This document shows positions 5,715 to 59,695 of a stretch of 64,000 nt of DNA, piece after piece (within the stretch, counting starts at the first letter, position 1; each line of letters begins with the position of its first letter). Made by a program: the position numbers and the translations under genes. Under the pieces are notes generated by a model that had not been told where the DNA came from, made no database searches, and was given only the letters and a program-made list of their open reading frames with translations. Source of the DNA: Odiellus spinosus (Eukaryota > Arthropoda > Arachnida > Opiliones > Phalangiidae); NCBI GenBank assembly GCA_963920705.1, contig OY987230.1:6262001-6326000 (forward strand). The letters run 5' to 3'.

Positions 5715-5944
5715 CGGCTTATATGAAAAACTATGCCTATATGAAATATGGAAATAAAACAAAGTGGGAAACGTGAGGAATTTTAAGCAATTGTGACTAA
5801 TAAGAAATTTAAAACCAAATACGATAAACATGAGGTATTTAAAGCAAGCATTGGGAATGTGGCCCAATAAGTAAACTAAAACCAAATACGATAAACACGA
5901 AGAATTAAAACCCAATAAGACAAAATTAGAAATAAAAGCCAATA

Positions 5945-8817: not shown

Positions 8818-8868
8818 CAGGATGACCATATTTCCCATATTTTCAATGTGTTAATTCCCATAATTTCG
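8818..8868 (+). mobile_element. CAGGGTGACC-family transposon, left-end fragment
   Basis: CAGGATGACCATATTTCCC followed by CATATTTTCAATGTGTT matches the left end of the copy at 49132. It breaks off abruptly into Fam1 sequence at about 8867, so either a deletion fused two elements or one inserted into the other and lost an end. Confidence 0.6.
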
Positions 8869-9732
8869 ATTCCTTATCGTTTAAATTGACCTAATCCACC
8901 AGTAAAATTACAAACAAATATTAAACTAGAAATAAATCTAAAAATTACTCGGATTCGTAGAGATCCTGAATTTCTTCGCGCTGATAGGTCATCGAATAAC
9001 TGACTGCTGTTGGAAGTCTCACGGAGATCTCGCCTTAAGGACTAGAGCTTGGAATCGGATATCTTCTGTTATTCGTATATATTTTAATTTCGGATAAAAT
9101 TGTAACTAAAAAATGAAATTTCTATATGTTAAATGTATAAGGTTTACCCGAAGATAAGCGTTTGGATCTTTATCTACCATAATTACTCGTATTCAAACGT
9201 ATAACGATGGGTAAGAAAATTCAAGTTTATAGAATTAGTCTAAAATATAAGAAAAATATTTCAAATTGACTTTTAATTTAAAGAATATAAATAAAACAAC
9301 GAAACTAAGATTTTAAGTCATCTTTTTATTCATTATTTTCACAAAAATAATTTTGAAATTTTTTATCCGAACGTTTATCGCGGATAATATTCTAAGATAA
9401 GGCCATTATCGGATAAAAACGGATATGGATTATGTTTTTTACTTTATCTTCGAATAAGTTAACTCGAATGAAAAATAGTCTATTTTTAATCAAACAGATA
9501 ATATAAATCAGAATTTAGATTTTATCCAATTAATAAAAATTATACGAATTCCGAGCTCTATTAACGACGAGCCTTTGCTCATTGGTCGCGAAGAAATTTA
9601 GGATCTCCATGAATCCAGCTAAGCCTATTTTAGGGGTAAGTTCTAAAATTATCTTGCTGGTGGATTATGCCTATTTAAACGATAAGGAAACGATAAAAAA
9701 TCACTTATTGTTAGGTTGCATTCTCCCTTTAA
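8867..9732. mobile_element. Fam1 MITE interrupted by a nested hAT
   Basis: Left part: CGATTCCTTATCGTTTAAAT, TTAAACTAGAAATAAAT and GAGATCCTGAATTTCTTCGC. Right part resumes at 9561 with AACGACGAGCCTTTGCTCAT and ends GGTTGCATTCTCCCT-TTAA. The outer left terminus (AGGGAGAATGCA) is missing. The interruption is the Fam3 element at 9043-9560. Confidence 0.75.
9043..9560 (+). mobile_element. Fam3-like hAT MITE nested in Fam1
   Basis: Ends are TAGAGCTTGGAATCGGAT and AATTCCGAGCTCTA. The flanks TTAAGGAC (9035-9042) and TTAACGAC (9561-9568) match at 7 of 8 positions; the uninterrupted Fam1 sequence reads CTTAACGAC. The body (GGATAA motifs, GTTATTCG) resembles 27913-28412 more than 4101-4571, so Fam3 has at least two subfamilies. 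Confidence 0.75.
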
Positions 9733-10582: not shown

Positions 10583-11000
10583 CAGGGTGACCACTTTTCC
10601 TATATTTCCTATTTTTTCCTATATTTTCACCTCCTTCCTATTTTCTCCTATAATTTAATGGCAATTCCTGTAATCTCCTATATTTCTACTCAAAATCTCT
10701 AGTTAAGGGTAAGTTATAAATCATACTGTCAGCTGTGGCTGTATAAGATTATTTTAGCTTGACTGTACATTTTCCAGTTAAAATAGTCTGTAAAATTCCA
10801 TACTATTTAAGCAATTGGATCATATTAATACCATGTTTAAACCGGTGGCGAGAGTTGTGATGCAATAATAAACATGGTTCCTACTTTTAATCAATTATTT
10901 TCCTATTTTATCATATATTTTACACTTATTTCTTCCTATTTTATCCTATATTTCGCAAAAGTTTCTATATAGGATTTTCAAATTTTCAGTGGTCACCCTG
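10583..11000. mobile_element. CAGGGTGACC transposon, compact copy
   Basis: It begins CAGGGTGACCACTTTTCC and ends AGTGGTCACCCTG. The interior is rich in TTCCTAT / TTTCCTATTT in irregular copies and has not grown into a regular array. CAG ends suggest hAT, but no clean 8-bp duplication is visible. Non-coding. Confidence 0.7.
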
Positions 11001-11650: not shown

Positions 11651-12080
11651 CAGGGTGACCAGACTTCCTATTTTTTCAATGTCTTCCTATGAATTCCTAT
11701 AATATAAGGTTTTCTCCTATATTTTCACTTTTTTCGGTTATCAGGTTGTTCATTTTCAAATAAAAGTATAATTTAAAATTTCTGAAAAATATAAAATTCC
11801 CACCAAAGGCATCGAGTCAAAAACAGAAGAGATTAAGATTTTAAAGAAAATCAAATAGCGATAAATATGTGGTGAAAATATTAAATCAACGGCGTATTAA
11901 AAGATATCCTATTTTTTTCCTATAAATTCGCTGTTATTTATCCTATATTTCCTTATATTTTCGTTATTATTTATCCTATATTTCCTATAATTTTAAATTT
12001 TCAATCCTATTTTCTCCTATAATTCGCCTTTATATTTCCTATTTTTCCTATAAAACTTTCTTTTTTCCCAGGTCACCCTG
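11651..12080. mobile_element. CAGGGTGACC transposon, compact copy
   Basis: Ends are CAGGGTGACCAGACTTCC and CCCAGGTCACCCTG, with a 430-bp body dominated by irregular TTCCTATA and TTTCCTAT motifs. It lies about 650 bp from the previous copy in the same orientation. No target duplication is evident. Confidence 0.7.
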
Positions 12081-20063: not shown

Positions 20064-20514
20064 TCGGATTCGCGTGTTCCGTTATTATTAAATTGACTAT
20101 TATATTTTTTTTACTTATTAACATTTTTTTAATCATTCAATTTGATATTTCTGAAGAAAAGAAGGATTATTTCGACTATTATCCTGTGTGATTGCTAACA
20201 TTTAACTGCGATTCAAAATAGGGTGAAATACGTGTTAAATATGTAGAGAATAGCGATAGCGTCATAAAGAACTCGAAGGTTTCTCAAAAATCAATTTACA
20301 ACCAACGAGGGTTTGGTCGTTAATTTTATTAAAGATATTATGATTGCCATAGCGATATTAATCTAGTAAAAAAAAACTAGTTTCATTATAACTTCAGGCT
20401 CCTTTTATTTATTTTCTAAGAAACTTAATTTTTATAAAAGTTTCGCTGTGGGCCTATCTTGATGCAAATGAGAATAGTCTCATTTAAAAGTTCTGACCGA
20501 GGGACTAATCACTA

Positions 20515-32119: not shown

Positions 32120-32544
32120 TAAAAACTTCTAAGCGATTGTGACATAGAATCATCAATCTCGAATCCGGATTTATGTATGTTAATAGGCTGTCAATACTTT
32201 AAATATGAGCTTAAACGATACGAAAAAAATGTATTCTTCGCGGTTCAATTTCTTACTCAACAATTACTTTTGCCCATTGATATCAAAAACTGTTTTTTTA
32301 GAGTATATTTCTTCGCAACGTGGAAGCTCAAAAATGAAGCGTTTCAGAAATTCAGACTGACTAGAAAATTGCCGTGACTGTCAGTTACAAATTTTGATAT
32401 TATAGGGAGAGTGGAATGGAATGGTCAAACAAGTTACTTTTATTTCTTATAATATAAACTTTTGCTGTTCATTTCTTGCATTGACGTGCAAAGAGGAAGT
32501 TATAATAATCGAAGTACAATTCTTATAATCTATAATTTTAACTA

Positions 32545-32660
32545 TATTTTCAAAGTATTCCTATAAATTCCTATAATTTCGACAATTTTCCTATCTTTTC
32601 CTGTTTTTTCAAGATTTTTTTAGTATTTGTCCGTTTTTTTAACATTGATGGGGCGCATAA
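32545..32660 (+). mobile_element. CAGGGTGACC-family interior fragment
   Basis: TTCCTATAAATTCCTATAAT, TTTTCCTATCTTTTCCTG and TTTTTTCAAGATTTTTTTAG resemble interiors at 11690 and 49200; no termini are present. Confidence 0.4.
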
Positions 32661-34197: not shown

Positions 34198-35722
34198 CAG
34201 GGTGACCAGACCTCCTATACTTTTCTTTTTTATTTTCTTTATAGGCCTACCTTACTTTTTTCCTTACCTATTTTTTCACCTATTCAGCACAAGAGATTAG
34301 TAGTTTCCACTCGATTCCAAGTTGAATGTTAGTTTTCCCATCCAACTTTCACCCCGCCCCCAAATTTTTATCTTTTTATTTAGAATGTCTATTTATTTGG
34401 AGTTTATGGTTTTCGGATGCTTCGTAAGAGACACTTCTATCATTTCTCGTATATTTTCCTTAATTTGAGTGTTATTTCGCCTATAATTGTATGCTCCTAT
34501 ATTTTTCCTATAATCTGTGTTATTTCTCCTATATTTTCCTATAATTTTAGTATTATTTCTCCTATATTTTCCTATAATTTTAGTATTATTTCTCCTATAT
34601 TTTCCTATAATTTTAGTATTATTTCTCCTATATTTTCCTATAATTTTAGTATTATTTCTCCTATAATTTCCTAATAATTTTAGTATTATTTCTCCTATAT
34701 TTTCCAATAATTTGAGTGTTATTTCTCCTAATTTTCCTATAATTTTAGTATTATTTCTAATATAATTTCATTTTTTAGTATTATTTCTCCTATAATTTCC
34801 TAATAGTTTTAATATTATTTCTCCTATAATTTCCTGATAATTTTATTGTTTCCTAATAATTTTAGTATTATTTCGCCTATATTTCCCATAATTTGAGTGT
34901 TATTTCTATCATTTCCCATAATTTTAGTGTTGTTTCTCCTATAATTTCCTACAAGTTTTAGTATTATTTCTCCTTTCCATATAACTTTAATATTATTTCT
35001 CCTTTCCATATAACTTTAATATTATTTCTCCTTTCCATATAACTTTAATATTATTTCTCCTTTCCATATAACTTTAATATTATTTCTCCTATATTTCCAT
35101 ATAACTTTAGTATTATTTCTCCTATATTTCCATATAACTTTAGTATTATTTCTCCTATATTTCCATATAACTTTAGTATTATTTCTCCTATATTTCCATA
35201 TAACTTTAGTATTATTTCTCCTATATTTCCATATAACTTTAGTATTATTTCTCCTATATTCCCATATAACTTTAGTATTATTTCTCCTATATTCCCATAT
35301 AACTTTAGTATTATTTCTCCTATATTCCCATATAACTTTAGTATTATTTCTCCTATATTTCCATATAACTTTAGTATTATTTCTCCTATATTTCCATATA
35401 ACTTTAGTATTATTTCTCCTATATTTCCATATAACTTTAGTATTATTTCTCCTATATTTCCATATAACTTTAGTATTATTTCTCCTATATTTCCATATAA
35501 CTTTAGTATTATTTCTCCTATATTTCCATATAACTTTAGTATTAATTCTCCTATATTTCCATATAACTTTAGTATTATTTCTCCTATATTTCCATATAAC
35601 TTTAGTATTATTTCTCCTATATTTCCATATAACTTTAGTGTTATTTCTTAAATTTTATTTTCCTATACCTCGCCTTTCCTATTTTCCTATGAAAAATGCG
35701 AGGCCTTTCCAAGGTCACCCTT
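34198..35722. mobile_element. CAGGGTGACC transposon expanded by an internal satellite
   Basis: Left end CAGGGTGACCAGACCTCC, right end TTTCCAAGGTCACCCTTT. The 430-bp size of compact copies has grown to about 1.5 kb through the array at 34430-35640. No target duplication was resolved. Confidence 0.7.
34430..35640. repeat. 33-bp satellite inside a transposon
   Basis: Right part: about 20 nearly identical units TTTAGTATTATTTCTCCTAT plus ATTTCCATATAAC. Left part: older variants with TTTTCCTATAATTTTAGTAT and irregular spacing. The homogeneity increases from left to right, a sign of directional expansion. Units are multiples of three and produce spurious frames on both strands. Confidence 0.9.
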
Positions 35723-36185
35723 TAACTTTGCTGAAAACACCAAACTTTTGTATATTTCTAAAACCACATATTCTTTTTATAAAGTTTCTTCTCGTCACTA
35801 CATCTTTGTTATTTTATTTTGAAGTAAATAATAGCTATCTAAGTTACATAATAGAAAATTACTGAACCTTATCTTTACCTTCAATTTATTTTCAAACAAA
35901 TTTTCGGAAATTTATTTCTCCGCCAATCTTTTAAGTATTCCTAATATAAAGATGCCGTTAGAATTTATCGATTGTTGTATTTACGTGTTCCATACTAAAT
36001 TGGTCTTTCGGAAATGTATTTTCAATGAAGAACATTATTTCATAAGCAATAATTTCTCTTGTATTGATTTTTTTTTGTTAAATATTAAAAACAGGTAATG
36101 CCCAAAATTACTTCCTATAACTTTGCAGATAAAAAGGAATATTGACGTGATTAACTTCATTTCAAAATTTCGTTATTAAATCATC
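35723..36185. other. Unique sequence, nothing recognised
   Basis: No gene or element recognised. Confidence 0.3.
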
Positions 36186-36530
36186 TTATAACTTTTGTTA
36201 ATTGAATAAGACCATCGTGAATATAACAGATTATCCGTTCGCGAAAAACATATCCATTTCTTATCCGAATTAACGTATACCCGAATGTTCAGGCAAAATT
36301 TTTATTCTTACTCATTGTTATAGGAAATTATTCATTCGCCGATAAGAAACATTTGAAACTCAAGTTTCTTCGCGGATTTTAACCCAAAATTGGGATCTCG
36401 AAGCTAGAATGTAGTAATTTAGTCTGTTCCTTTTAATTTAGATTAAAATATAATTGTTATATTTTATTCTACACGGATTTCGAGAAACGTCATATTTTTA
36501 TTTTCGCGTTATCCGTTTGAATAACATTTT
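36186..36530 (-). mobile_element. Fam3 hAT MITE, truncated
   Basis: TAACTTTTGTTAATTGAATA, CATTCGCCGATAAGAA, GGGATCTCGAAGCTAGAATG and TTCTACACGGATTTCGAGAA align with 42757-43221; the TAGAGCTCGGAATCGG terminus is missing after about 36530. Confidence 0.7.
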
Positions 36531-37069
36531 AACATTATAAAAATAAGTCGAAATTCACTTAAGTTGCACTTTATCATAAAAGTAAAACTCTTATACGAAT
36601 ACATAAGGTTAGAGTATGAACTTAGAAAATCTCATTTTAATTTTGAAAATCGAATGTGTGCTGTACCGTTATCGATTGTAAAATAATTATTATTATTATT
36701 TTTTGAGGATGAGGAAACCCGTTAACTTATTGTTATGTAATAATCTATAATATAGTAATTTTCCAGTTCATTTCCTCGTATTTATGCATCAACCATCGAT
36801 GAAAAATAAAAGGGCATATATTTTAAATTAATTTGAAGTTATTAAGACCTTTTATTATTTTTATTTTCATTCTTATTTTTAAGCGCTAGCTTCCTAGACA
36901 TTACAGTTCTTAAACGGAAGTAAGATAAATGATTAAAACAGCTAATAAACGAGGCTAGATAAATGTTATACAACTTAAAATAATAATTATAAATTTGTAA
37001 AGTGCGGGTTATTGCCGAGAAGGCTTAGGAAACGGCGCAGTTTAAAACACCTAGGAAGTTAAGTTTTCT
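36531..37069. other. AT-rich, nothing recognised
   Basis: No gene or element recognised. Confidence 0.3.
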
Positions 37070-37810
37070 GTTTTCTAGAAAAACAATATTAGATGGTGCT
37101 GAAACTCGTCACTATAAATACATTTTAATTTCGCTAAACAAATAGAAAGGGAAAGATATGCAGTAAAATACACACCCGAGATTACGTCACTAAGCCTAAA
37201 TAGTGCCTAATTCTTTCTTTTAAGCGTTGCCCTTATCTCAATTGGGACTAGTCGATTTTCCGAAACCACGATTTTGTAACGGTAGCGACATCTCAGACCT
37301 TTCCTCGTAATCTACCGAAATTGTAAAATAGTTCAACTAGTACGTCATTTTATTATAAACTTTCATTAGGTACTTCATTCGCGTCGCTATTAAAATTCAA
37401 ACGATAGAAATCGGACCAGGAGTCTTACCATGGGCCAAGAAAAGATAAATCCAGGACATGACTCTAGCGTCTACTAAAAGAAACAGGTACGTCATCACCG
37501 TACCGTGATGACGCGTTTTTTGGGGTCAAGTTTGTACAGTCAAAGGTATGGCGTTTTGGGAGCAAAGTGACGTCATATGATGTCACACGCTGTACGAAGG
37601 CTGTTTGTTTGGCTGACCGAGAATTTTATTCCCTCAAACGGGGAAGAGTCATGTCCTGGATTTATCGTTTCTTGGCCCATGGTCTTACCAATTATATTTT
37701 AATTTACGTTTAGAACTACGGTTAAACAACTAATCCATGAAATACTTCAATTATTCTAGTTTTAAATAGTGAAATTCTTTTATTTTTGCGGGAATTAGTT
37801 CGCAAAAATA
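37070..37810 (-). mobile_element. Fam8 repeat copy, interrupted
   Basis: AGATTACGTCACTAAGCC, GCGTTGCCCTTATCTCAATT, GGGACTAGTCGATTTTCCG, GACCTTTCCTCGTAATC and TAGTACGTCATTTTATTATA, continuing after the insertion as CAATTATATTTTAATTTACG and TTATTCTAGTTTTAAATAG. It hosts the 253-bp element at 37429. Confidence 0.65.
37429..37681. mobile_element. Short CATGG-ended transposon with 7-bp duplication
   Basis: Terminal inverted repeats of 37 bp with one mismatch begin CATGGGCCAAGAAAAGATAA. Perfect duplication GTCTTAC at 37422-37428 and 37682-37688. The interior has a small palindrome around TACGTCATCACCGTACCG. CATGG ends and 7-bp duplication are shared with the THAP element at 7302, so the two may be relatives. 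Confidence 0.85.
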
Positions 37811-38079
37811 TCATGATTCTGAATTAAATTATATACACAATGAATTAAAGCATTACATTCTTCAATAATCAATTTTAAATCGCAAATAGGTTAACGTACA
37901 TATCGTGTTTATTGATTTTACTGCAGATTTTTCCCGATTAATCCAAATCCTATTTGAATCCGAGTCAATTTTATATATGACATAATAAAAATTGGTTTTT
38001 TATCTTCAAAATAAAAACCAAATCAAATCAAATTAGATGGCCGTTTGACGCGTTAGAAAGAAGCTTCAAAATGAAAATG

Positions 38080-38905
38080 CCAAAAATATTTGGCTAATTT
38101 TATTCCGATATTTGACGTAGTTTATTTTTGGAACGTAATAAACGATAGTTTTCATAAGAAATGTTGGACGTTCTGGATTAAGTACCTTTATGAAAAAGAC
38201 CGCGCGAAAGCGAGCATATCACTCGTGCCAGAACGCGCTAGAATCAACTGTAGGCTTTACAATAGTGACCATAGTGATTGCGGTGTAATTTTTATTTTAA
38301 AACTTTCGGAATAGATAATTATAAAATATCAGAGGTATATAATAACCCCTTTCGGGGGGAAGTATGAAAGCCCCTATACTACCAATGCTAAAAATCACGA
38401 ACAACAAGAGCCCGCTGCTGACTATCTAGGCCACTAGCTCGCGCTGGACTTCTCAATGTCGCTACTCTAGTAAATGGTCTTTGTATAAACAAGACGGCTC
38501 GATTTGTGTTTAGAACTTCCTGTCTCAGGAGTCAGGCTGTCTGTTAAATTGGAGTCGAAGGCTGACTTCAGCTCGCGAGTTCCGGAAGTGTGCGTAGGGA
38601 AAATTAAGTGAGGTTCAAAATGGTGTAACTATTTTTTGGGAGTAAAGCGGTGTGTCGATCCGCCGCGATTTACGCCGGGCACTTGTTGTTCGTCGATTTT
38701 GCCTACCTTTCATACTTCCCCCCGAAAGGGGTTATTATATACCTCTGAAAATATGTATTTTTACTATTGTGGCAATTTTTTTTATGACATTTGTATATAT
38801 ATTCCAAATCGTTTTTAACGATCTTTCCGAAAATGTTATTGAATTTACATTTGGAGTTGGTGAAAAATTTCGTGACAACAATTTACGCTTTAAATATTCA
38901 TGAAA
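38080..38905 (+). mobile_element. Fam9 MITE interrupted by a hAT-like element
   Basis: TTATTCCGATATTTGACGTA, GGAACGTAATAAACGATAG, CGCGAAAGCGAGCATATCAC, CCAGAACGCGCTAGAATCAA and TGTAGGCTTTACAATAGTG, then after the insertion TTTTTATGACATTTGTATAT and TTCCGAAAATGTTATTG. It corresponds to 60105-60518 plus the 418-bp insertion. Confidence 0.65.
38330..38747. mobile_element. hAT-like element, CAGAGGTATATAATAACC ends
   Basis: 41-bp terminal inverted repeats are perfect or nearly so (38330-38370 and 38707-38747). The flanking direct repeat AAAATAT occurs at 38323-38329 and 38748-38754 (7 bp, the eighth differs). The interior is richer in G+C than the surroundings and has frames of 60-83 codons near the right end without recognisable domains. 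CAGAG ends suggest hAT. Confidence 0.8.
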
Positions 38906-39454
38906 GAGGATAACAGCAACGAAAGATTGCTAATCAACCCCAAAAATAAGCTTCAATTTAGTAGAAAATAAATTAACCCTCAAACCAAATTCAACCCAAA
39001 ATAAATAAAATAAACCACACACCCAAGAATTAACCCGCTCCTTTCATATTAAATCACTTTTTTTTTTTTTTTTTTTAATTTTAAAGACAGAACTAAGAAG
39101 GAAAATATCATAAATTTCCTAGATTATGTAACCGCTTTAGTGGCCCCGCGTGTAAATGAAACTAGTCTTTTATATTACAAAGATAAGAAAATTCAAATAT
39201 GTACCTAACAAGTACCTAAACATTTCGCGTAATTAAATTCGGGCTACCTTTTTTATTTTTCAAATTATTTTGAAAAGGGGGTGAATATAAATACGGAAGA
39301 TTTAAAAACCCGGAAAAATTCAAAAAACCTAGTACGTTTACGCTTGATTAAATAACGAAAATAATATTAACCGGTACGATATGGGAAGTTTCTTATTATC
39401 AAAATTAAAACATAAATTTCTTTTAAAGGTGTCTAACAATTAATGTACAATAAC
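38906..39454. other. AT-rich, nothing recognised
   Basis: Only a poly-T run near 39058-39076. Confidence 0.3.
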
Positions 39455-40192
39455 TTAAAGGTAGAATGCAACCTAACAACAAATGATTTTTTTATCGATT
39501 CCTTATCGGTTAAATAGGCGAGTAAAAAAAATTGCAAACAAATATTAAACAAGAAATAAATTTAAAACTTAAGATCAAAATAAGCTTAGCTGTATTCATG
39601 GATATCCTGAATTTTTTCGCATCGATGGGTCAGCAGTCAATCGAATTGATTGGAAGTCTCGAGGAGATCTCGCCTTAACAACGGGCATTTGCTCGTTGGT
39701 GGATGACCCTTCAATGCGAATAAGTTCAGGATCTCCATGAATCCAGCTAAGCCTATTTTCTGAGTAAGTTTGAAATTTCTGGTTTAATATATTTACTTGT
39801 GAATTAGGCCTATTTAAACGATAAAGAATCGATAAAAAATCAATTGTTGTTAGGTTGAAATCAGTTTAAATCTTATCCAGAAAATAGGCTTAGCTGGATT
39901 AATGCAGATCCTGAATTTATTCACATTGATGGGCCATGGACCAATGAGCAAATGCCCGTTGTTAAGGCGAGATCTCCTTGAGATTTCCAATCAATTCGAT
40001 TGGCTGCTGACCCATCAATGAGAAGAAATTCGGAATCTTCACGAATCCAGCTAAGCCTATTTTGATCTCACGTTTTAAATTGATAACTAGTTTAATATTC
40101 GTTTGTAATTTTTTTTACTGTTGGATTAGCCCTATTTAAACGATAAAGAATCGATAAAAATTACTCGTTGTTATGTTGCATTCTCCCTTTAA
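39455..40192. mobile_element. Two Fam1 MITEs head to tail
   Basis: The first copy begins TTAA-AGGTAGAATGCAACC and runs to TTGTTGTTAGGTTGAAATC near 39863. The second starts internally (TTTAAATCTTATCCAG, 39875) without its outer left end and finishes TTGCATTCTCCCT-TTAA at 40192. Both have GAGATCTCGCC-type or inverted centres in opposite orientations, so this may be one element partly duplicated or two insertions fused by deletion. Confidence 0.7.
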
Positions 40193-40554
40193 TGTGCCCA
40201 TTGGGGGCAATGCCCCTCTGATAAAATTGTATTTGCCCCTTTAATGCCCCAGTTTGCTACGTTAAAGAAAGCTAAATCCACCTCAATCAAAATTGTATGG
40301 CTAGGGGCCTGTGTGTCAGTGACTCTTATTTTGATTTATATAATTAGAAGAATCATTTTCTTGAAGTTAAATGGCTATAGGCTCATCAAGCGCCAATAAG
40401 GAAGATTGATAAATCGTACCATTAATGCCTAATACGATTACAACACTTGTAAGGAGATAAAGTACGTAAAAAATGATTTTGTAGTTGAAATTAATGAAGT
40501 TCTTTTAAAGAGGATATCCTTCAGTCGATCTTTAGTGTTATTAACGATCGACCT
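40193..40554. other. No gene recognised
   Basis: A small GC-rich patch, TTGGGGGCAATGCCCCTCTG, near 40200-40250 could be another element remnant. Confidence 0.3.
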
Positions 40555-41745
40555 TTGCCAAATTTAATATCGATTCCTTCTACTTAAAACAGGCATAACA
40601 TATTGATTATTTAAGAGATAGGCCTAAAATATTTTGATTACTTAAAGAGTTAAACTAGACCTGATAAATATTGTTTCCTATATATCTAATTAATATTGAT
40701 CCTTTATTCTAAAAAATAGGCCTGATTAATCTCGATCCATTATTCTAAAAATACACTTTATTAATATCGATTTATTATTCTAAAAATAGGCCTTATTAAT
40801 ATCGATGCATTATCATTAAAAATGCATAATGAATATCGATTGATTATAAGAAAAAATGCATAAATAATATCGATGCATTATAATTAAAAGTGAATAATTA
40901 ATATCGATGCATTGTCATTAAAAAAGGCATAATTAATATCGATGCATTATCATTAAAAAGGCATAATTAATATCGATTGATTATAAGAAAAAAAATGCAT
41001 AAATAATATCGATGCATTATCATTAGAAGTGAATAATTAATATCGATGCATTGTCGTTAAAAAGGCATAATTAATATCGATGCATTATCATTAAAAAGGC
41101 ATAATTAATATCGATGCTATATAAATAAAAAATGAATAATTAATATCGATGCATTGTCATTAAAAAAGGCATAATTAATATCGATGCATTGTCATTAAAA
41201 AAGGCATAATTAATATCGATGCATTATCATTAAAAAGGCATAATTAATATCGATGCATTATCATTAAAAAGGCATAATTAATATCGATGCAGTATCATTA
41301 AAGAGGCATAATTAATATCGATGCAGTATCATTAAAGAGGCATAATTAATATCGATGCAGTATCATTAAAGAGGCATAATTAATATCGATGCAGTATCAT
41401 TAAAGATGCATAATTAATATCGATGCATTATCACTAAAAGAAATCATTATCATTAAAAAGGCCTAATTATTATTGAATATAATTCCCATTTAATTAAGGG
41501 AATTGTTATAGATTTCTTATCCTTAAAATAAGCTTAATTAATATTGATTACCTTTCCTTAAAATATACGTAATTAATATCGATTACGCATATTTAAAATA
41601 GGCCGAATTAATATCGATTACTGATCCCTAAAATAGGTGTAATTAATATCGATTCCCGATCCTTAAAATAGGCGTAATTAATATCAAAGCATTGTCATTT
41701 AAATATGCCTAATTAATACGGATTGATTGTTAATAAAATAAGTCT
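40555..41745. repeat. 34-bp minisatellite carrying ATCGAT
   Basis: Regular core 40800-41440 of unit AATTAATATCGATGCATTAT plus CATTAAAAAGGCAT with 33-36-bp variants; degenerate flanks on both sides (AGGCCTGATTAATCTCGATC, AATATCGATTACTGATCCC). Each unit carries two palindromic hexamers (ATCGAT, ATGCAT). Homogeneity is highest in the middle. Confidence 0.88.
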
Positions 41746-42159
41746 TTAGAAATTATCATATTATTAGAATTTGTCACATACGCTTTAATTCGAAATTTCC
41801 TTCATTTAATTAGTTTTTTCTTCACTAATCGGTCGCTAATGTTTGAGTTTACGACAAAAAAGTATTTAACATTTTTGTAAAATATTTCACGAGAGGTCGG
41901 GTGCATTTGTTGTCCAGTGTTCCGTTTGGTTAATTATTGTTTCACCCTTATTTAAACGATTATTCAGATATGGAATAATTCTTATATTGAGGATATTTTT
42001 CTATTTTTTTGTATGATTACTCAAACGTTTTTAATTAATTTTCCAAATGCGGTCGAACTTCTCGGCGAGTTGACAAGTTTAAATATAATTTGCTACGGTT
42101 ATTAGGCCTAGAGCTTGGATAAATTAAGGGGGAAGTGAGAGACTAATTAAAAAAGAATG
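41746..42159. other. Nothing recognised
   Basis: AT-rich sequence without recognised content. Confidence 0.3.
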
Positions 42160-42360
42160 GTGTAATAGTATACTTTTTGCGGAAAAACTAAAGCCCGCAA
42201 AACTTAAATTAAAATTCTGACGGTGAAGTAAGACTATATTTGTCATTGTTACTCGAATGCTCATGGTCTGATTTCTATCGTTTCAATTTTAATTAATAGC
42301 GACGCGAATGAATATTTTTAAAAGAAGAAATATACTAGTTGAACTTTTTTAAATTAGAAT
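42160..42360. mobile_element. Fam8-related partial copy
   Basis: GCCCGCAAAACTTAAATTAA, CATTGTTACTCGAATGCTCA, TTTAATTAATAGCGACGCGA and ATACTAGTTGAACTTTTTT. Confidence 0.5.
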
Positions 42361-42414
42361 TAAGCATTTTCTCATTATCGGAATCGATAGAGCTCTGTCA
42401 TATCGGAAGAGGAC

Positions 42415-42635
42415 TCTATGAGCTATGTTCACACTTGACACTTTGAAACTAGGAATATAATACTTCGTCTTCGAGACGAACTATTATTTCTAGCTTTTCC
42501 AACCATTTCTATGGATCAAAACAACTATTCAAGAAATTACTTCTATTTCTAGAGCAAAGATCTACACGGGAGACCACGAAACTTTATTATTAATCGGTTT
42601 CAAAGTCTCTAGTGTGAACGCGGCTCTACTTACTT
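42415..42635. mobile_element. Fam5b MITE (short subfamily)
   Basis: AGCTATGTTCACACTTGACA at left, CTAGTGTGAACGCGGCTC at right; interior AAAGATCTACACGGGAGACC. Shares interior with 51118-51430 and 54757-54948. Confidence 0.65.
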
Positions 42636-42756
42636 CATTAAAATGTCTTGCCGAATTAATGAATTGTTTTGAGCAGTTTTACTTGCGAGGGATTATTTTT
42701 AAAATAGAAATTATATGTTGTTAAACCAAAATTGAATACTGAGTGGTCCCTAAACC

Positions 42757-43221
42757 TAATTTTTGTTAATTAGACTATCGTGAATGTCAATCAGACATTA
42801 ACCCGCTCGTGAAAACATATCCTATCGAGTTATCGTATCAGAATGTAAGGCAAATTGTTTATTGGTAATCATTGCTATAGGAAATTAATTATTTTCATTC
42901 GCCGATAAGAACAATTTGAAAATCGAGTTTCTTCGCAGATTTTAACCCAAATTGGGATCTCGAAGCTAGAATGTAGTCATTTAGTCGCTGTTCCTTTCAA
43001 TTTAGATTAAAATATAATTATTATATTTCATTCTACACGGATTTCGAGAGACGTCATATTTTTATCTTCGCGATATCAGTTTGAATAAAAGCGTAATTAG
43101 TTTATCAATCAAGGTTAAAATTGTATCTCCGGATAATTCGTATTTATCCGAGATTAAAATATCTGAAAAAAAAACCTAGTTATCAATGGATAAGTTATTC
43201 ATTATCCGATTCCGAGTTCTA
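42757..43221 (-). mobile_element. Fam3 hAT MITE, intact
   Basis: 465 bp ending TTATCCGATTCCGAGTTCTA. Perfect 8-bp duplication CCTAAACC at 42749-42756 and 43222-43229. Interior GGGATCTCGAAGCTAGAATG and TTCTACACGGATTTCGAGAG match 4101-4571 in reverse. Confidence 0.85.
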
Positions 43222-43889
43222 CCTAAACCTTTAAAACAGAAATACGTTAAAAAAATGAATACTATTCAAGCGTATCCTTAACAACAACATTTATAAAAAT
43301 AAAAATTAGGCTTCGAAATCGGTTCTTTTAACTCAATTGTACGTTTTGAGCCTGCCTGCATGCGGTCCATCATTTTAAAAGGATTTTACTCTTTTTGCCA
43401 CATCGAATAAATGCATATAGTGGTACCGCCGTCAAGAGTTCGCTCGACCTTGCAATCAGTTCTAGAAAAAAAAGATGATTTTCGTTTCAATGCCATAGCT
43501 ATATAGTAGAAGATCTTAGATTCGAGGAAAAGCGCGATTAAAAGGCGGAGGAAACCTTTATCTTCCACTTTTTTTAAACTTCTTCCCACTTCTTTACTCC
43601 ATAAACTATCTTCTTTAGAAGAATAAAACTTCTTGGGCTTTTCTAAAATCATCCTCTGTCTTCTCTTTTGAAACATTCTTTCGCGTTTCCTCATTCTGTC
43701 ACCATTTAGATTTAAAAAACCTCTTTATATTCTTGTATGAAAGCTGCAAGTATTAACATTTATATAGATATTTTTATTATAAATAATTAGATTAGATTAT
43801 CCCTGATTTAATGTAATAAAAAAAGGTTTTAGTTACAATATGTAATTTAATTGAAATTATACTTCTTTACTTTGTAAGGCTTAAAAATA
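43222..43889. other. Unique sequence, no supported gene
   Basis: A 102-codon minus frame (43386-43694) is rich in Lys, Arg and Glu but of a length expected by chance; no domain recognised. Confidence 0.3.
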
Positions 43890-44069
43890 TAGAGATCGGG
43901 GTTTGGACAAGAAAATTTCTGATTATTTTATCTTTATTCATAACTTAAAATTTTTCGAAAAAAGTCTATGATAAATCCAATGTAATCGCGAATAATTTTC
44001 CGATTATTTTTTTATGATTAACTGATTAACTGATAGTTGTGGATTATTTTGTCCAAACCCCTATCTCTA
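43890..44069. mobile_element. Fam2 hAT MITE
   Basis: 180 bp from TAGAGATCGGGGTTTGGACA to TGTCCAAACCCCTATCTCTA. Perfect 8-bp duplication TAAAAATA at 43882-43889 and 44070-44077. Confidence 0.85.
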
Positions 44070-44689
44070 TAAAAATATAAGTAAAACTTAGGATTTCGCT
44101 ATAGAAAGTTAAATTGCGGTGATTTTAATCTTCTTCTAAACTATCATTATAAGTGTTTGTGACTAGTGTTCATTGTATTTAACCATTAAATTATTATAAG
44201 ATAGGTATTGTCCTAAGTTTTATATTAGATGGCACTCTTTTTTTCACTGTTACACACGCGTATCATCTTCAAAGAAACACGCGTTAAAATCTTTCCTAAG
44301 AATAAATTTAAAAGTTTTATTGAAACTCCCAAACTTATACGATAAAAAACAGTATTTCTTCGTGGTGGCCGAGTTGTGTCATAATTGTGATCAACGAGTC
44401 GACAATTGGTCGTTAACAATATAGTATTCAGGTTGGAGGTCCTTGTTTTCAACCAAACTACGCGTTTCCCGCAAATAACGAGCTCCGCGTGCCATTATAA
44501 AAATTCCGCGGGGTTAAAAAATAACATTCAATCAATCATCAGGATATATGCCGTATTGAGGTGCACTGAACTTGAAAGAAAAATAGAAAACAAAACGACT
44601 TCGGAGAAGAGTCGTACGGCATAAGAATCGGAACTGTATAGTTCTATAAAAACCGTGTTCACATTGGAGACTTTGAAACCGTTTTTAAC
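44070..44689. other. No supported gene
   Basis: Short frames on both strands around 44225-44624 have no recognised motifs and chance lengths. Confidence 0.3.
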
Positions 44690-45295
44690 CGTTTTAGAAA
44701 GGTCGAATTAGCTTCGGTTCCACTATCGATTTGAAATGGTCAAATCAAACCGATATTCAAATCGCTAGGAATCGTTTTAAGCGACACGTGTTCATGCAAA
44801 ATATAGCTGCGTTCATACAAGGCCATGGAATCGATTTAAACCGTTTCAAAACGTTTCGCTAGAGTCGTGTGAACAGGAAACCGTCTTTTCCCGAATCGAT
44901 TTGATTCGATTTCTCAAAACCGCTTCGAGAACCAGTTTCATACTGATTCGGATTCAACAACCGATAAACGAAGCTACAATAAATCGATTTATGAAGATAA
45001 TGCGTGAACACAAGACGTTTAAAATGATTTCTGTCGATTACAATATCGGTTTGATTTTACCGATTAAAATCGATAGGGATATGTAAGTGTGGCCGTAGGT
45101 TATGTTTAAACATCGATTTATTGTAGCTTCATCTATCGGTTGTTGAAACCGAGTCGGTATGAAACTGGTTCCTGAAGAAATTTCGAGAAATCGAATCAAA
45201 ACGATTCGAGAAAAGACGGTTTCACGTTCACACGACTAGCGAAACTTTTTGAAACGGTTAAAATCGATTCCAAGGCTTAGTGTGAACGCAGCTAA
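44690..45295. mobile_element. Fam5 MITE inserted in an oppositely oriented Fam5 MITE
   Basis: The outer copy reads CGGTTCCACTATCGATTTGA ... GTTTTAAGCGACACGTGTTC, breaks at about 44803, and resumes at 45110 as ACATCGATTTATTGTAGCTT ... TAGTGTGAACGCAGC. The inner copy (about 44804-45103) runs in the other direction from AGCTGCGTTCATAC to GTGTGGCCGTAGG. A target duplication was not resolved. Confidence 0.65.
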
Positions 45296-45327
45296 CGTAC
45301 AATTTTGAGGTTAAGTGTAAATAACAT

Positions 45328-45664
45328 CAGAAGCCGATGAAACCCTCCTTTGAAGTCTACTACTCCAATGTTCCATATAACGCTCCTCTCTGTATGAGTA
45401 AAATTCACAGTTTTACGAGTTAGAAGGGGTCCTACTTCATCCCCCCTGTCTACGGAAAATTGGAAATTCTCTCTCTCTACAAACGACGACGTTTTTTGGA
45501 CGAACTCCAAGGCTGGTAGAGATATTCGCTCGACGAGCTCCCGCTCCGAAAACATCTACCGTTAGGAGGAGTACGGATCGCGCCTTTTGAGAATAACCCA
45601 TACAGAGAGGGGTAGACAAGACCCGGGAGTAATAGACTTCAAAGGAGGGTTTCATCGGCTTTTG
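45328..45664. mobile_element. Fam6 MITE, full-length, 7-bp duplication
   Basis: CAGAAGCCGATGAAACCC to GGGTTTCATCGGCTTTTG, 337 bp. Perfect duplication ATAACAT at 45321-45327 and 45665-45671. Arms carry CCTCTCTGTATGAG and CATACAGAGAGGGGTAGACA; the centre has GACGAGCTCCCGCTCCG. This is the best reference copy of the family. Confidence 0.88.
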
Positions 45665-45671
45665 ATAACAT

Positions 45672-46974
45672 TTCTCAAAAAATATAAATATTATCTTAAA
45701 AAATTCACCGAAAGACTCGAAACGGTTTGAAAATGATTTCAATGTCTCTAGTGTGAACAAAATAATTGAGCTGAACTTGGCCAAGACAATATATCACGTC
45801 ACAATGTTACAGGTCAATTAATCGAGACACTCTTTGGTATGACTCATTTGAATCGAATTTTCTTAGATGCTTTGAGAACTCCAGGTGGGTGGGAACAAGG
45901 TTGATAGAGTTTCACTAAATTCAAATGTATTACTACCATATTACTGTTTCCACTAAATCAAAAAGTTCACTAAAAGTTACTATTTTTTTTAATTTGGTTA
46001 CTAAAAATTACTATTTTCGTAATTAGGCAAGTTATCTATATCATTTAGACTATGTAAAAGATAATAATTCTCGCGGGTTTCAAGTTAAACTAGGCGGAAA
46101 CCCCAACATCAAAGATATTATCTGCGTAAGAAGAGAAATAGAGCATCTTATAACCCTTTTTTTTTTTTCAAAACTTATCCTATAATTGTACATTTTCTCT
46201 ACGATTCTTTCTAGTCTTTGTCAAATGAAATGAAAAACTATAAAGAATTGAATACAGTTGTCGTGGAAAAAAATCTTGCTGGTTGCGTAGGTTTATTTAT
46301 TGTCGCGAACGCGCTGAAAGTTTCTACTCCAATCTATTATATATATACTCTACTATACCGCGTTATGCCCAAGGTCATGACGACTGCCAGTGAGTTGGAA
46401 ATAATCAGGGCTAGGAATATAATACTCGTGCCTCCCCCTTCATCCTCCTAGATCAGAGTTCGTACAAACCTGGAAAACTCAGGGAAATAAAGGCTTAAGG
46501 GAACGCGTCGTAGGTCTAACCTTCAAAATCTCCTAGGTCGGGAATGAATCGTACGGACGCGTTGCGCGTATCATCATCGCTGACATTTTCATTGAACTTG
46601 TCGAAATGTTTCAAGATAATCATCCAAATTTATCGGTAATAGTTAACTTAGGTTGTATATTATCTAATTTATTCAAAAGTTTCCGTGAGTCTCGTGAAGT
46701 TTATTTCCAAATCGTTTAAACGATTTGTTGCATCGTCGTTGCGCTAAGCCTCGGCCTTGTTGCTATTTATCTATCAAACGCGAATTGAGCGAACAAATTG
46801 GCGCGGTATCGCGAAGTGAAAAAAAATGGATTACTTAATTTACGCATCTAATTGGTAAGTTTATAAATAATTATTTTTTAATTAGTTGTTGGTATTTGTA
46901 CCAAAATGTGTATTATTAGTAGTCCTTCTGAGCTAAGCCAAAATGACAATCTGGCCCCAAATTGGTACAATTGT
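45672..46974. other. Mostly unique sequence, no supported gene
   Basis: A Fam5 end (TCTAGTGTGAACAAAATA) lies at about 45748. A 77-codon frame at 46218-46451 is unrecognised. The 46440-46800 part is somewhat richer in G+C than the surroundings but holds no frame that could be assigned. Confidence 0.3.
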
Positions 46975-47402
46975 ACTTTACGTGACCCACCCAACTAACA
47001 CATTTTTCTGACTGTTTAGACCATGGGAGTTCAAAAAAAATAGTTAAAAAAATATTGGACCGCCGCAAATATTTTTAATTTTTTTTTGAAAATTTGAAAT
47101 TCCCATGCTAAAATCCCATAGAATGCGCCATAGGTTGGGTTGGGTTAGGTTAGGTTAGGTTGGGTTAGAATCTATGGGATTTAACACGCAAAATTTGAAG
47201 TTTGCGTGTTAAATCCCATAGATTCTAACCCAACCTAACCTAACCTATGGCGCATTCTATGGGATTTTAGCATGGGAATTTCAAATTTCAAAATTTTTTT
47301 TAAATATTTGCGGCGGTCCAATATTTTTTTAACTATTTTTTTTTAACTCCCCATGGTCTAAACAGTCAGAAAAAAGTGTTAGTTGGGTGGGTCACGTAAA
47401 GT
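46975..47402. repeat. 428-bp near-perfect palindrome with telomere-like segment
   Basis: The left arm starts ACTTTACGTGACCCACCCAA and the right arm is its reverse complement, ending TTGGGTGGGTCACGTAAAGT. Arms of about 210 bp meet near 47193, where AACACGCAAA faces TTTGCGTGTT across 8 bases. Each arm contains CCAACCTAACCTAACC-type repeats; the left arm has one more repeat block. Differences between arms are few. It is either a foldback transposon or a recent inverted duplication. Confidence 0.88.
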
Positions 47403-47484
47403 AAAATCCTACCCTAAAGTTAATATATTGGGATGGCGCAGCCTCTGTCTTAGGCTGTATTATTTTTAAATTAGCTGTTTTATC

Positions 47485-47684
47485 NNNNNNNNNNNNNNNN
47501 NNNNNNNNNNNNNNNNNNNNNNNNNNNNNNNNNNNNNNNNNNNNNNNNNNNNNNNNNNNNNNNNNNNNNNNNNNNNNNNNNNNNNNNNNNNNNNNNNNNN
47601 NNNNNNNNNNNNNNNNNNNNNNNNNNNNNNNNNNNNNNNNNNNNNNNNNNNNNNNNNNNNNNNNNNNNNNNNNNNNNNNNNNNN
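47485..47684. other. Assembly gap (200 N)
   Basis: Exactly 200 N, likely a placeholder size. It lies between the palindrome and a 115-bp tandem repeat, both hard to assemble. Confidence 0.99.
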
Positions 47685-47738
47685 TATAGGCCTACATTCA
47701 CTAAAATCCAAACGAGAGAAATCTATTAACACTGACAA

Positions 47739-48310
47739 AAATAATGGATATATTTTACAATAGCTACACCACCCAATATAGACAAAAACATATACCAATA
47801 GCTTCGTTGACTTAAACCCTATCCAACGCAAGAAAAATAATTCACCGGAATTGCCATAATGGATAAATTTTACAATAGCTCCACCACCCAATATAGACAA
47901 AAACATATACCAATAGCTTCGTTGACTTAAACCCTATCCTACGCAAGAAAAATAATTCACCGGAATTGCCATAATGGATAAATTTTACAATAGCTCCACC
48001 ACCCAATATAGACAAAAAAATATACCAATAGCTTCGTTGACTTAAACCCTATCCAACGCAAGAAAAATTATTCACCGGAAATGCCAGTTTATATATTTTA
48101 CAATAGCTCCACCACCCAATATAGACCAAAAAATATACCAACAGCTTCGTTGACTTAAACCCTATCCAACGCAAGAAAAATTATTCACCGGAAATGCCAT
48201 AATGGATATATTTTACAATAGCTCCACCACCCAATATAGACAAAAAAATACCAATAGCTTCGTTAACTTAAACCCTATCCAACGCAAGAAAAATTATTCA
48301 CCGGAAATGA
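47739..48310. repeat. 115-bp tandem repeat, five copies
   Basis: Units start near 47741, 47856, 47971, 48086 and 48199, each with TTTTACAATAGCTCCACCAC, CCAATATAGACAAAAA, AATAGCTTCGTTGACTTAAA and CCCTATCCAACGCAAGAAAA. The first starts about 55 bp after the assembly gap, so the true copy number may be higher. It is followed by poly-A and AGTTAGGATATGTTAGG words. Confidence 0.9.
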
Positions 48311-48600
48311 AAAAAAAAAAAAAAGTTAGGATATGTTAGGTAAAAGTTAGGATATGTTAGGTTAGGTTAGTTTATGATACAAAATTATATACATAACGTT
48401 TTTGGGGTAATAAAAGTGTATTTTTAGTTTTGGTTTGATAACACAATTTTCGCTCCACATTTTGGGTGTAAATTCACAAGAATGCTATCAGAAGGGTGTG
48501 ACATTGGAATTTTGGAAATATGGTTTTACTCTGGTTTTTTATGCCTCTTACGGCTGATCCGACTCAAACTATAATCATCCCTTATACTTTTGAATAGGTG

Positions 48601-48735
48601 AAGCTATTGTAAAAACTCCCCCTAACCTAACATATCCTATTTTTTTTTTTTTTCTTGCGTTGGATAGGGTTTAAGTCAACGAAGCTATTGGTATATTTCA
48701 ATTTATATTGGGTGGTGGAGCTATTGTAAAAAAAA
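48601..48735 (-). repeat. Inverted single copy of the 115-bp unit
   Basis: TTTCTTGCGTTGGATAGGGT, TTAAGTCAACGAAGCTATTG and TTGGGTGGTGGAGCTATTGT are the reverse complement of the upstream unit, preceded by CCTAACCTAACATATCCTA, the complement of the words after the array. Together 47739-48735 form a foldback structure with a roughly 230-bp unique loop. Confidence 0.8.
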
Positions 48736-49077
48736 CCTCCCAAATAATCGTTTAACCATTACTTTTATAATTTTGGGTAAAAAAATTTATATATTAAATA
48801 ATCAAGTGTTCTTGTTTTAAATATTGAACACCGTTTATTTTTCCATAACAAATTAAGTTAACAAAAAAGTACCATGATTTCAAAATTAACCTCTCATTTC
48901 CCCCTTTAAGTTTAATGTTATTAGTGATGTCCAGACCAAGAGACAAACTTTGTTACATTGAAAAACATCAAAACTCCATTAATTTATCCTAATATAAGTC
49001 AGACCTCTATTTTGACTAGAATGACTGTACTAATTGGAATCTTGAAAACGGTAGAGACGCTCCATTTAAGTTATGTT
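48736..49077. other. Nothing recognised
   Basis: AT-rich; no element ends or genes recognised. Confidence 0.3.
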
Positions 49078-49519
49078 CACACTAGGCACTTTATCCGCGT
49101 TCACACTAGACCTTGGAGTCGATTCAAACCGCAGGGTGACCTCAATTCCTATATTTTCTAATTTTTCGTATATTTTCAATGTGTTTCTTTAAGTTCCTAT
49201 AATTCCTTTTTTCAAGATTTTGTATTTGCGCGCTCAAAGCTACAAAAATTCGATGTAAATGCTTAATAGAGATATGGCACTCAAAAACTACGAAAATGAA
49301 GTGAAAATTGGGCCAAGTTTGGTGTCATTTGTATCAATGTGTATTCCTACATTTTTAGATTGAGAAATAAGCTGGCTTTTTTTCCGAAATCTATATTTTC
49401 TATAATTTGAATAGATATTCTACTATATTTCCTATATTTCCTATATTTCCAAAATAACATTCCTCCATTATCCTCTATTTCTAAATAAATATTCTTACAT
49501 TTTCCTATGTTTCCAAGTA

Positions 49520-51010
49520 AATATTCCAATAATTTCCTATATTTCTAAATATTCCAATAATTTCCTATATTTCTAAATATTCCAATAATTTCCTATATTT
49601 CTAAATATTCCAATAATTTCCTATATTTCTAAATATTCCAATAATTTCCTATATTTCTAAATAAATGTTCCAATAATTTCCTATATTTCTAAACAAATGT
49701 TCCAATAATTTCCTATATTTCTAAACAAATATTACAATAATTTCCTATATTTCTAAATAAATGTTCCAATAATTTCCTATATTTCTAAATAAATGTTCCA
49801 ATAATTTCCTATATTTCTAAACAAATATTACAATAATTTCCTATATTTCTAAACAAATATTACAATAATTTCCTATATTTCTAAATAAATGTACCAATAA
49901 TTTCCTATATTTCTAAACAAATATTCCAATAATTTCCTATATTTCTAAACAAATATTACAATAATTTCCTATATTTCTAAACAAATATTCCAATAATTTC
50001 CTATATTTCTAAATAAATACTCCAATAATTTCCTATATTTCTAAATAAATACTCCAATAATTTCCTATATTTTTCAATAAATATTCCAATAATTTCCTAT
50101 ATTTTTCAATAAATATTCCAATAATTTCCTATATTTTTCAATAAATATTCCAATAATTTCCTATATTTTTCAATAAATATTCCAATAATTTCCTATATTT
50201 TTCAATAAATATTCCAATAATTTCCTATATTTTTCAATAAATATTCCAATAATTTCCTATATTTTTCAATAAATATTCCAATAATGTCCTATATTTTTCA
50301 ATAAATATTCCAATAATTTCCTATATTTCTTAATAAATATTCCAATAATTTCCTATATTTCTCAATAAATATTCCAATAATTTCCTATATTTCTCAATAA
50401 ATATTCCAATAATTTACTATATTTCTAAATAAATATTCCAATAATTTACTATATTTCTAAATAAATATTCCAATAATTTCCTATATTTTTCAATAAATAT
50501 TCCAATAATTTCCTATATTTTTCAATAAATATTCCAATAATTTCCCATATTTTTCAATAAATATTCCAATAATTTCCTATATTTTTCAATAAATATTCCA
50601 ATAATTTCCTATATTTTTCAATAAATATTCCAATAATTTCCTATATTTTTCAATAAATATTCCAATAATTTCCTATATTTTTCAATAAATATTCCAATAA
50701 TTTCCTATATTTTTCAATAAATACTCCAATAATTTCCTATATTTTTCAATAAATACTCCAATAATTTCCTATATTTTTCAATAAATACTCCAATAATTTC
50801 CTATATTTTTCAATAGATATTCCAATAATTTCCTATATTTTTCAATAGATATTCCAATAATTTCCTATATTTCTTAATAAATATTACAATAATTTCCTAT
50901 ATTTCTTAATAAATATTACAATAATTTCCTATATTTCTTAATAAATATTACAATAATTTCCTATATTTCTTAATAAATATTACAATAATTTCCTGTATTT
51001 CTTAATAAAT
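49520..51010. repeat. 32-bp satellite inside a transposon, about 45 copies
   Basis: Unit TTCCAATAATTTCCTATATT plus TTTCAATAAATA; subfamilies in order: TCTAAATA (25-bp short units at left), TCTAAACAAATATTACA, TTTTCAATAAATATTCC (longest, most homogeneous) and TCTTAATAAATATTACA. The shared core TTTCCTATATTT is also the core of the array at 34430-35640. Confidence 0.92.
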
Positions 51011-51019
51011 ATCTCATTT

Positions 51020-51037
51020 GGGGGGGGGGGGGGGGGG
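51020..51037. repeat. Poly-G tract (18 G)
   Basis: An uninterrupted G run at the right edge of the satellite; its length is likely variable or error-prone. Confidence 0.85.
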
Positions 51038-51117
51038 CTGTGGCCACTCTGAAACCGTTTCATAACGATTTGAACATTCGAAACGGTTTCAAAGAGTCAA
51101 GTGTGAACGTAGCTTCC

Positions 51118-58994: not shown

Positions 58995-59695
58995 GCTTAG
59001 GTTCATTTGCTCGACTTCCAATTGATCGACAAGGAGTCCGTTTGATCGACTACCGTTTGATCGACTACCGTTTGATCGACTACCGTTTGATCGACTACCG
59101 TTTGATCGACTACCGTTTGATCGACTACCGTTTGATCGACTCCCATTTGATCGACAAGCCATTCCAATTGATCGACAGCCCAGTTTTTTAGCGAGTAACG
59201 AGTATAGGTCAAAGTTTTTTTGCAAGAAACTATTAAAGGTTAAATTATGGTATATAAATAAGAACTAATTCAAATAATAATTATTCCGTGAAAATGGGGT
59301 CAGAGTACTCGTTTGTCGGTTGGGTTAGGTTGGGTTAGGTTGGGTTAGGTTAGGTTGGGCTAGGTTGGGTTAGGTTGGGTTAGGTTGGGTTAGGTTGGGT
59401 TAGGTTGGGTTAGGTTGGGTTAGGTTAGGTTTGGGTTAGGTTAGGTTGGTTAATCTATTTATAATCGTTATTACGAAGTTGACCAATTGGGAAACGATCA
59501 AATGCACCCTTTGTTGTCGGTAATTTGGGATTAGGCATCAATCATTTGATCCCTTTGTCGATCGTTTGGGAGTCGATCAAGTGGACCTCTTGTCGATCAT
59601 TTGGGAGTCGATCAATTGTGAGTCGATCATTTGGGTGTCGATCAAGTGGACCTCTTGTCGATCATTTGGGAGTCGATCAAGTGGACCCAAATCCT
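58995..59695. mobile_element. Fam10 element with telomere-like core
   Basis: Left cluster 59022-59152: about eight 15-bp units TTTGATCGACTACCG. Core 59318-59450: about 13 units of GGGTTAGGTT. Right cluster 59575-59690: GTCGATCAAGTGGACC and GTCGATCATTTGGG in the opposite direction. Flanks GAGTCGG occur at both sides (58989-58995 and about 59697-59703), a probable 7-bp duplication. Frames of 60-104 codons on both strands come from the 15-bp unit. Confidence 0.7.

Follow-up and report, generated by a model that had tools for sequence, protein, structure and literature searches.

The stretch of Odiellus spinosus DNA analysed here (the window; 64,000 nucleotides of contig OY987230.1, C6:6262001-6326000 of the 443-Mb genome) holds compact copies of a transposon family together with copies enlarged by long tandem arrays. 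The family looks like a non-autonomous DNA transposon, and most probably it is a hAT6-like family whose unstable arms grow arrays at different seeds in different copies. Parallel birth of satellites, as proposed in an initial annotation of this DNA, is right, with a tandem-prone right arm as the apparent cause rather than one motif. Loci are labelled below by contig (C1, C6 and so on) or by L-number.

Exact copies of the terminal sequence CAGGGTGACC start at 10583, 11651, 34198 and 49132, and their inverted counterparts end at 11000, 12080, 35722 and 51051 (Table 1). When up to one mismatch is allowed, the window contains 11 CAGGGTGACC sites against 0.45 expected, a number reached by none of 100 shuffles, and the inner word TTTCCTATATTT has 90 matches where 3.07 are expected, which likewise none of 100 shuffles attains. 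These shuffles rule out chance or simple repeats as the origin of the ends and the inner word. Tandem Repeats Finder (TRF) identifies a 33-bp unit present 34.8 times at 34535-35648 and a 32-bp unit present 48.7 times at 49471-51012, and together with the end search this confirms the CAGGGTGACC-ended compact pair and the arrays in the 34198 and 49132 copies that had been noted at the outset. The core word that both arrays were said to have in common holds in part, as exact copies of TTTCCTATATTT are found in the 49132 array, and the word in the 34198 array is one mismatch off, mostly TCTCCTATATTT.

Throughout the genome, CAGGGTGACC occurs 2377 times, compared to 402 for the reversed pattern. 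End pairs within 1 kb were counted by hand among 100 of the 2377 places, which cover C1 up to 19.7 Mb. These include 25 exact inverted pairs, 23 of them spanning 385-490 bp, one 557 bp and one 885 bp. The distribution of the family looks clustered, with 56 of the 100 listed sites in C1:0-3 Mb and six exact sites in the 64 kb of the window. An alignment of 16 compact copies reveals at least three unrelated cores under common ends and common arms of TCCTAT words: core A in the 10583 copy and its relatives, core B in 11651, L010 and L036, and core C in L001. As read from this alignment, the inverted ends are 10 bp in B and 13 bp in A, CAGGGTGACC(ACT). Matches between the 49132 copy and L001 extend over 37 bp in the core and 37 bp in the left arm, and the first 277 bp of the 49132 copy match two other places at 69%; the 34198 copy has a core of its own (D), with ∼10 weak core relatives elsewhere, the best at 81-82%. 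Within 18 elements, TCCTAT is found 255 times on the majority strand and 11 times on the opposite strand, and the arms are thus direct repeats lying outside the inverted ends. The words in the compact copies had been described as irregular, and turn out to be doublets 9-10 bp apart, which in A recur every ∼29-30 bp in the left arm and every 33 bp in the right arm, and in B are similar but less regular. Short, non-coding, bounded by inverted ends and present in many copies, the elements qualify as tandem-repeat-bearing miniature inverted-repeat transposable elements (MITEs), and a tandem array lies inside the element boundaries in 34198, 49132 and L009. The compact copies do not appear to be deletion products of one ancestral array, given that the A, B and C cores are unrelated; a short ancestral arm fits the A and B copies, which have only a few degenerate right-arm units.

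The arrays of individual copies were followed through the genome by their units. At up to three mismatches, all 36 genome matches to the 32-bp unit lie inside the 49132 copy. The 33-bp unit has 40 genome matches, with 25 in the 34198 copy and 15 elsewhere; the 17 exact or one-mismatch matches are all in the 34198 copy, and the variants at the other loci are their own. For the two window units, the counter-case, arrays found mostly without the family's ends, is therefore not borne out (36/36 and 25/40 matches inside the window elements). The 33-bp and 32-bp units appear to have a word in common and to be otherwise different, and the late 33-bp unit scores 26 against the main 32-bp unit, a value reached by 16 of 100 shuffles. 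In both arrays, the similarity between neighbouring units exceeds that in all 2000 reorderings (tested on 22 of 36 segments for the 33-bp array and 42 of 46 for the 32-bp array), as block-wise local duplication predicts. A third array, in the B element L009 (C1:134937; with an exact right end and no identified left end), consists of 40 matches with up to four mismatches to the 22-bp unit ATAAAATTTCAACTTTTTTCCC, located between the B arm and the right end. The same stretch is single in L010 and L036 (one mismatch each) and in L020 (four mismatches), and has no match in 11651 at this limit. Because the L009 unit lacks TCCTAT, this word is not needed for array growth, and the common feature of the arrays is their right-arm position. 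The proposal of one transposon family with separate array growth in different copies thus stands, based on the private 32-bp unit and the other units expanded elsewhere, while the proposal of a single internal motif as the seed gives way to differing 22-34-bp right-arm stretches.

A closer look at the right arm indicates how these arrays may have begun. The right arm of the compact B element (B11651 257-403) aligns with the start of the 34198 array (window 34495-34643) at 80% over 151 aligned positions, which cover several units, and the 33-bp array would accordingly be read as the expansion of a proto-array present in compact B, not as birth from a lone motif. Array units were also scored against the arms, each arm with 200 dinucleotide shuffles. 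On the B right arm, the early 33-bp unit reaches 108, where the shuffle maximum is 46, and a B-type 31-bp unit (C1:1964018-1964814) reaches 79, where it is 26. On the A right arm, an A-type 33-bp unit (C1:1824247) reaches 124 compared to a shuffle maximum of 43. These three units beat the shuffles on some further arms too, at lower scores, because the arms have the TCCTAT word in common. In the sequence, the C1:1964018 array is directly preceded by the B left arm and core. Gap columns in the alignments of 12 A copies have medians of 32 per 132 aligned for the right arm, 10 per 80 for the left arm and 2 per 181 for the core. The right arm thus exceeds the core ∼20-fold in gap density, and is unstable already in compact copies. 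L032, with one additional adjacent 34-bp unit, represents an early step in the continuum from compact to expanded copies. In readable elements, arrays begin in an arm and never in a core.

Pattern searches place these arrays in a genome-wide setting. Three TCCTATA words at 30-35-bp spacing give 3431 match positions compared to 58 for the control, and at 24-29-bp spacing 1444 compared to 211. Among the matches listed, which run from C1 to C3, array steps are 24, 25, 26, 28, 29, 30, 31 and 33 bp, and several different arrays must exist since these steps differ. From the density on C1, our guess is that TCCTATA arrays in the whole genome number on the order of a hundred or more. Arrays adjoin an exact right end in 26 rows (23 loci) and the relaxed right end TCACCCT in 42 rows (36 loci), with a control of 0 in both cases; overlapping rows of one array or end were merged by hand into loci, and the loci read were those of the window. 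Helical phasing, in which 10-bp doublets and 31-33-bp units would correspond to turns of the helix (three for the units), is weakened by the array steps of 24, 25, 26, 28 and 29 bp.

Table 1. Elements of the family, their parts and probable relics in the window
Feature	Position	Strand	Remarks
Compact element, subfamily A	10583..11000	+	Exact ends, 418 bp
Compact element, subfamily B	11651..12080	+	Exact ends, 430 bp
Right arm of compact B element	11907..12053	+	Degenerate 31-33-bp tandem
Expanded element D	34198..35722	+	1525 bp; left end exact, right end one mismatch
33-bp array, right part of 34198 element	34494..35648	+	Left units closest to compact B arm, right units an amplified variant
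Expanded element C	49132..51051	+	1920 bp; left end exact, right end two mismatches
32-bp array, right part of 49132 element	49471..51012	+	First four units 28 bp
Target-site duplication AAACCG, left copy, 49132 element	49126..49131	.	6 bp, perfect
Target-site duplication AAACCG, right copy, 49132 element	51052..51057	.	6 bp, perfect
Probable relic left end, without assigned partner	8818..8880	+	CAGGATGACC plus left-arm-like sequence, by eye
Probable relic left arm, without recognised terminal repeat	32517..32607	+	C49132 12-73 at 81%, B11651 18-84 at 78%

Mobility of the family is seen in its target-site duplications (TSDs). A 6-bp TSD is exact in 4 of 18 elements (49132, L025, L027 and L038) and has at most one mismatch in 8 of 18, compared to means of 0.21 and 0.77 under random pairing of flanks, where neither observed count was reached in 4000 shuffles. 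Other lengths from 3 to 11 bp are not enriched at this level; 8 bp gives 0 of 18, and L012 has an exact 7-bp duplication. The 18 elements derive from 26 candidate end pairs by removal of 9 overlapping or far-partner pairings (L018 at 609 bp, two of L020, L024, L025 at 932 bp, and window pairings of 2183, 565, 1645 and 1498 bp) and addition of L001. Flank comparison revealed no TSD at the 10583, 11651 or 34198 elements. The outer flanks of the neighbouring compact pair at 10583-12080 agree at five of six positions (AGTGTA / TGTGTA), hinting that the pair possibly moved as a single unit.

Several transposon classes were considered. Helentrons and HINE elements make no TSD and insert between T and T, and the 6-bp TSD places the present family outside them. 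Foldback elements have long, internally repetitive inverted repeats, whereas here the inverted part is only 10-13 bp and the arm repeats are direct, as the strand counts of TCCTAT indicate. Nor does the family appear to derive from COI or a nuclear mitochondrial copy, a point raised by a universal COI primer that contains CAGGGTGACC; L005, with CAGGGTGACCAAAAA, shows reverse-transcriptase-like open reading frames (ORFs) and no recognised COI. Among the top-ranked titles and abstract openings of the literature searches, no published description of the family was seen, which does not show absence from print; the search by end sequence was swamped by COI primer matches, the papers listed being mostly on barcoding or COI. 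Dada elements are described with a 6-7-bp TSD, insertion in small RNA genes and no terminal inverted repeats (PMC3706591); the present family has terminal inverted repeats and its flanks vary between copies, and it is not assigned to Dada. hAT transposons with a 6-bp TSD have been named hAT6 (PMC12730594), and hAT terminal inverted repeats are given as 10-25 bp (PMC3942097). The likeness to hAT6, as far as these excerpts describe it, lies in the 6-bp TSD, the short inverted ends and the hAT transposase domains in the genome, where the hAT dimerisation domain PF05699 has at least 150 matches. It differs in that here no transposase is tied to the ends and only copies without a recognised gene are seen; an autonomous element was not found, and five ORFs from unpaired loci had no significant Pfam match. 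We draw the hAT6-like assignment from two features, the 6-bp TSD and the short CAG... ends. Maize Ac/Ds differs in its 8-bp TSD and AAACGG hexamers, and the passages on Ac/Ds consulted here do not describe growth of kilobase arrays from its subterminal regions.

The subfamilies have in common their inverted ends and two subterminal arms of same-strand TCCTAT doublets, and vary in their cores. By analogy with Ac/Ds and Galileo, the arms are probably transposase-binding repeats. As degenerate tandems themselves, the arms, the right one above all, would readily undergo slippage or unequal exchange, leading in a minority of copies to the duplication of an arm stretch of 22-34 bp. Adjacent units would then duplicate as blocks, producing an array of ∼0.9-1.5 kb between the core and the right end. 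With differing stretches amplified in each copy, one family could give rise to many different-looking satellites. Growth is likely to have followed rather than preceded insertion, with slippage or unequal exchange as the presumed molecular step. A further and rather speculative extension, which we consider unlikely, is that the right arm is a dedicated array nursery, in which the process maintaining the putative binding doublets (e.g., transposition-coupled gap repair at one end) would turn one 22-34-bp stretch after another into new satellites.

Some results weigh against array growth from unstable right arms in a hAT6-like family. None of the PF05699 matches listed in C1:0-19.7 Mb lies closer than 5 kb to a listed CAGGGTGACC, and the shortest distance seen is ∼7 kb. 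The seed of the 49132 array is not pinned down, as its unit fits the A right arm (score 70) better than the right arm of L001 (29). A 30-bp array at C1:18546691 is hardly arm-like, with a best arm score of 28 where shuffles reach at most 26. Between the early 33-bp unit and the main 32-bp unit the score is 63, where the maximum of 100 shuffles is 58, and the two are therefore not wholly unrelated. The 33-bp unit is also shared across copies, with matches at C6:17237394 (9), C14 (2), C8 (2), C11 (1) and C16 (1); the 11 on C6 (L056) and C14 (L063) belong, by eye, to arrays within elements with decayed ends, and the flanks of L056 repeat GTGTTAG. Once all TCCTATA arrays are considered, the association of arrays with ends, upheld above for the two window units, is less certain. 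Five arrays are listed on C1 (1824247, 1964018, 18546691, 18624180 and 18626303), and four of these have no exact CAGGGTGACC within 5 kb, 1824247 being the exception at ∼2.4 kb. Left-arm expansions may occur too, as a mirrored left-arm pattern is found in 14 rows at 12 loci (control 0), some of which may be short elements. The C12:5390267-5390608 region has repeated matches to the 49132 left arm, two of them 40 bp apart. Strict confinement of arrays to the right arm is weakened by these 12 loci and the C12 matches. An exact-end pair 906 bp apart at C16:6385148-6386053, presumably one element, is matched by both the right- and the left-array patterns. Finally, minisatellites outside the family are common.

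This last point underlies the alternative that minisatellites arise genome-wide at a steady rate with 20-40-bp units, and that some land in transposons by chance, the family having no special role. We regard this as a serious possibility, somewhat short of even. When TRF was applied to 29 non-overlapping loci and the window (∼151 kb), 11 arrays of at least 200 bp were outside the family as far as seen, or ∼1 per 14 kb, with units lacking TCCTAT. At this rate ∼0.65 arrays are expected in the C1 sample of ∼21 elements (∼9 kb), where one is seen (L009). When the window is included, 3 arrays (34198, 49132 and L009) are seen in ∼25 compact elements (∼11 kb) compared to ∼0.8 expected, which argues against a background origin, though 34198 and 49132 lie in a window chosen for having arrays and the elements were counted by hand. 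These counts do not establish that the family is more prone to satellites than the DNA around it. Background birth is at odds with the far denser gap columns of the right arm compared to the core, and with arrays of readable elements beginning in an arm rather than in a core.

It is also conceivable, though improbable in our view, that the arrays are old parts of particular subfamilies and were already in place when these spread by transposition, in the manner of Xstir or Cg_HINE. Units near those of the 34198 array at the C6, C14, C8, C11 and C16 loci could be explained in this way, as could a stretch matching the 33-bp unit that is repeated at C1:24607030-24607491. Such spread does not account for the confinement of the 32-bp unit to one copy, for the restriction of the closest 33-bp matches to 34198 with other loci having their own variants, or for the L009 stretch being single-copy in three other B copies. 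Alternatively, selection may have expanded the arms since extra binding sites raise transposition, with the long arrays as overshoots. Arms are common to copies whose cores differ, repeats in the terminal inverted repeats of Galileo bind the THAP domain of its transposase (PMC3688188), and the Tetris authors have proposed such a route (PMC4079207). However, the stretch amplified in L009 lacks the shared word, an outcome not expected under selection for that site, and transposase binding here is suggested by analogy; we find this account doubtful. Growth from unstable right arms remains the explanation we prefer.

Tandem arrays carried or seeded by transposons are, according to the sources consulted, already well known (PMC4079207; PMC7492417; PMC9659126). 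In Tetris of Drosophila, tandem repeats in the element ends seed longer arrays (PMC4079207), and the foldback-like Tetris and Galileo resemble the present family in that end repeats seed arrays in the former and bind a transposase domain in the latter. Tetris differs, as described there, in having ∼220-bp repeats inside inverted repeats, compared to 10-13-bp ends and direct 22-34-bp units here. Cg_HINE Helentrons of the Pacific oyster combine related flanks with unrelated arrays (PMC7492417), as seen here, but are Helentrons with 13 genome-wide array clusters, whereas here the fully tested unit is private to one copy and a TSD is present. Xstir and miDNA4 of Xenopus have a satellite monomer inside a MITE (reviewed in PMC9659126), again as here; the review passage names one satellite per element, compared to several units in the present family. 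The Odiellus case stands out for its replication and for the ancestors it preserves, rather than as a novel type of system.

Other repeats in the window were recorded alongside the family. Tandem arrays with 27-115-bp units lie at 5901-7217, 19693-20064, 29136-30550, 40687-41439 and 47741-48309, and were rejected as family members as their units lack TCCTAT; minisatellites are thus abundant in this region. A run of 18 G at 51020-51037 separates the 32-bp array from the right end of the 49132 element, and the related L001 is T/G-rich at this place. The regions 16025-16474 and 59038-59687 show the same layout twice, each with a TTAGG-like run (16186-16263 and 59318-59452) flanked on each side by 15-bp GTCGATCATTTGGGA / TTTGATCGACT repeats. 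A block similar to this layout is found in L063, at ∼2610-2770 of the reverse complement.

How single-copy DNA turns into a satellite is generally difficult to trace, as the ancestor is lost. In this family, the compact copies preserve the pre-array sequence and the expanded copies serve as replicates of the event. L009 provides an example, as this one copy holds ∼40 repeats of a 22-bp stretch that related copies in the genome have once. Should an arm-specific excess over background be confirmed, the family could be used to test which sequences start arrays, and to distinguish transposase sites from slippage. If the nursery reading is true, one family would be the source of perhaps ∼100 or more satellites, each with a datable single- or few-copy ancestor.

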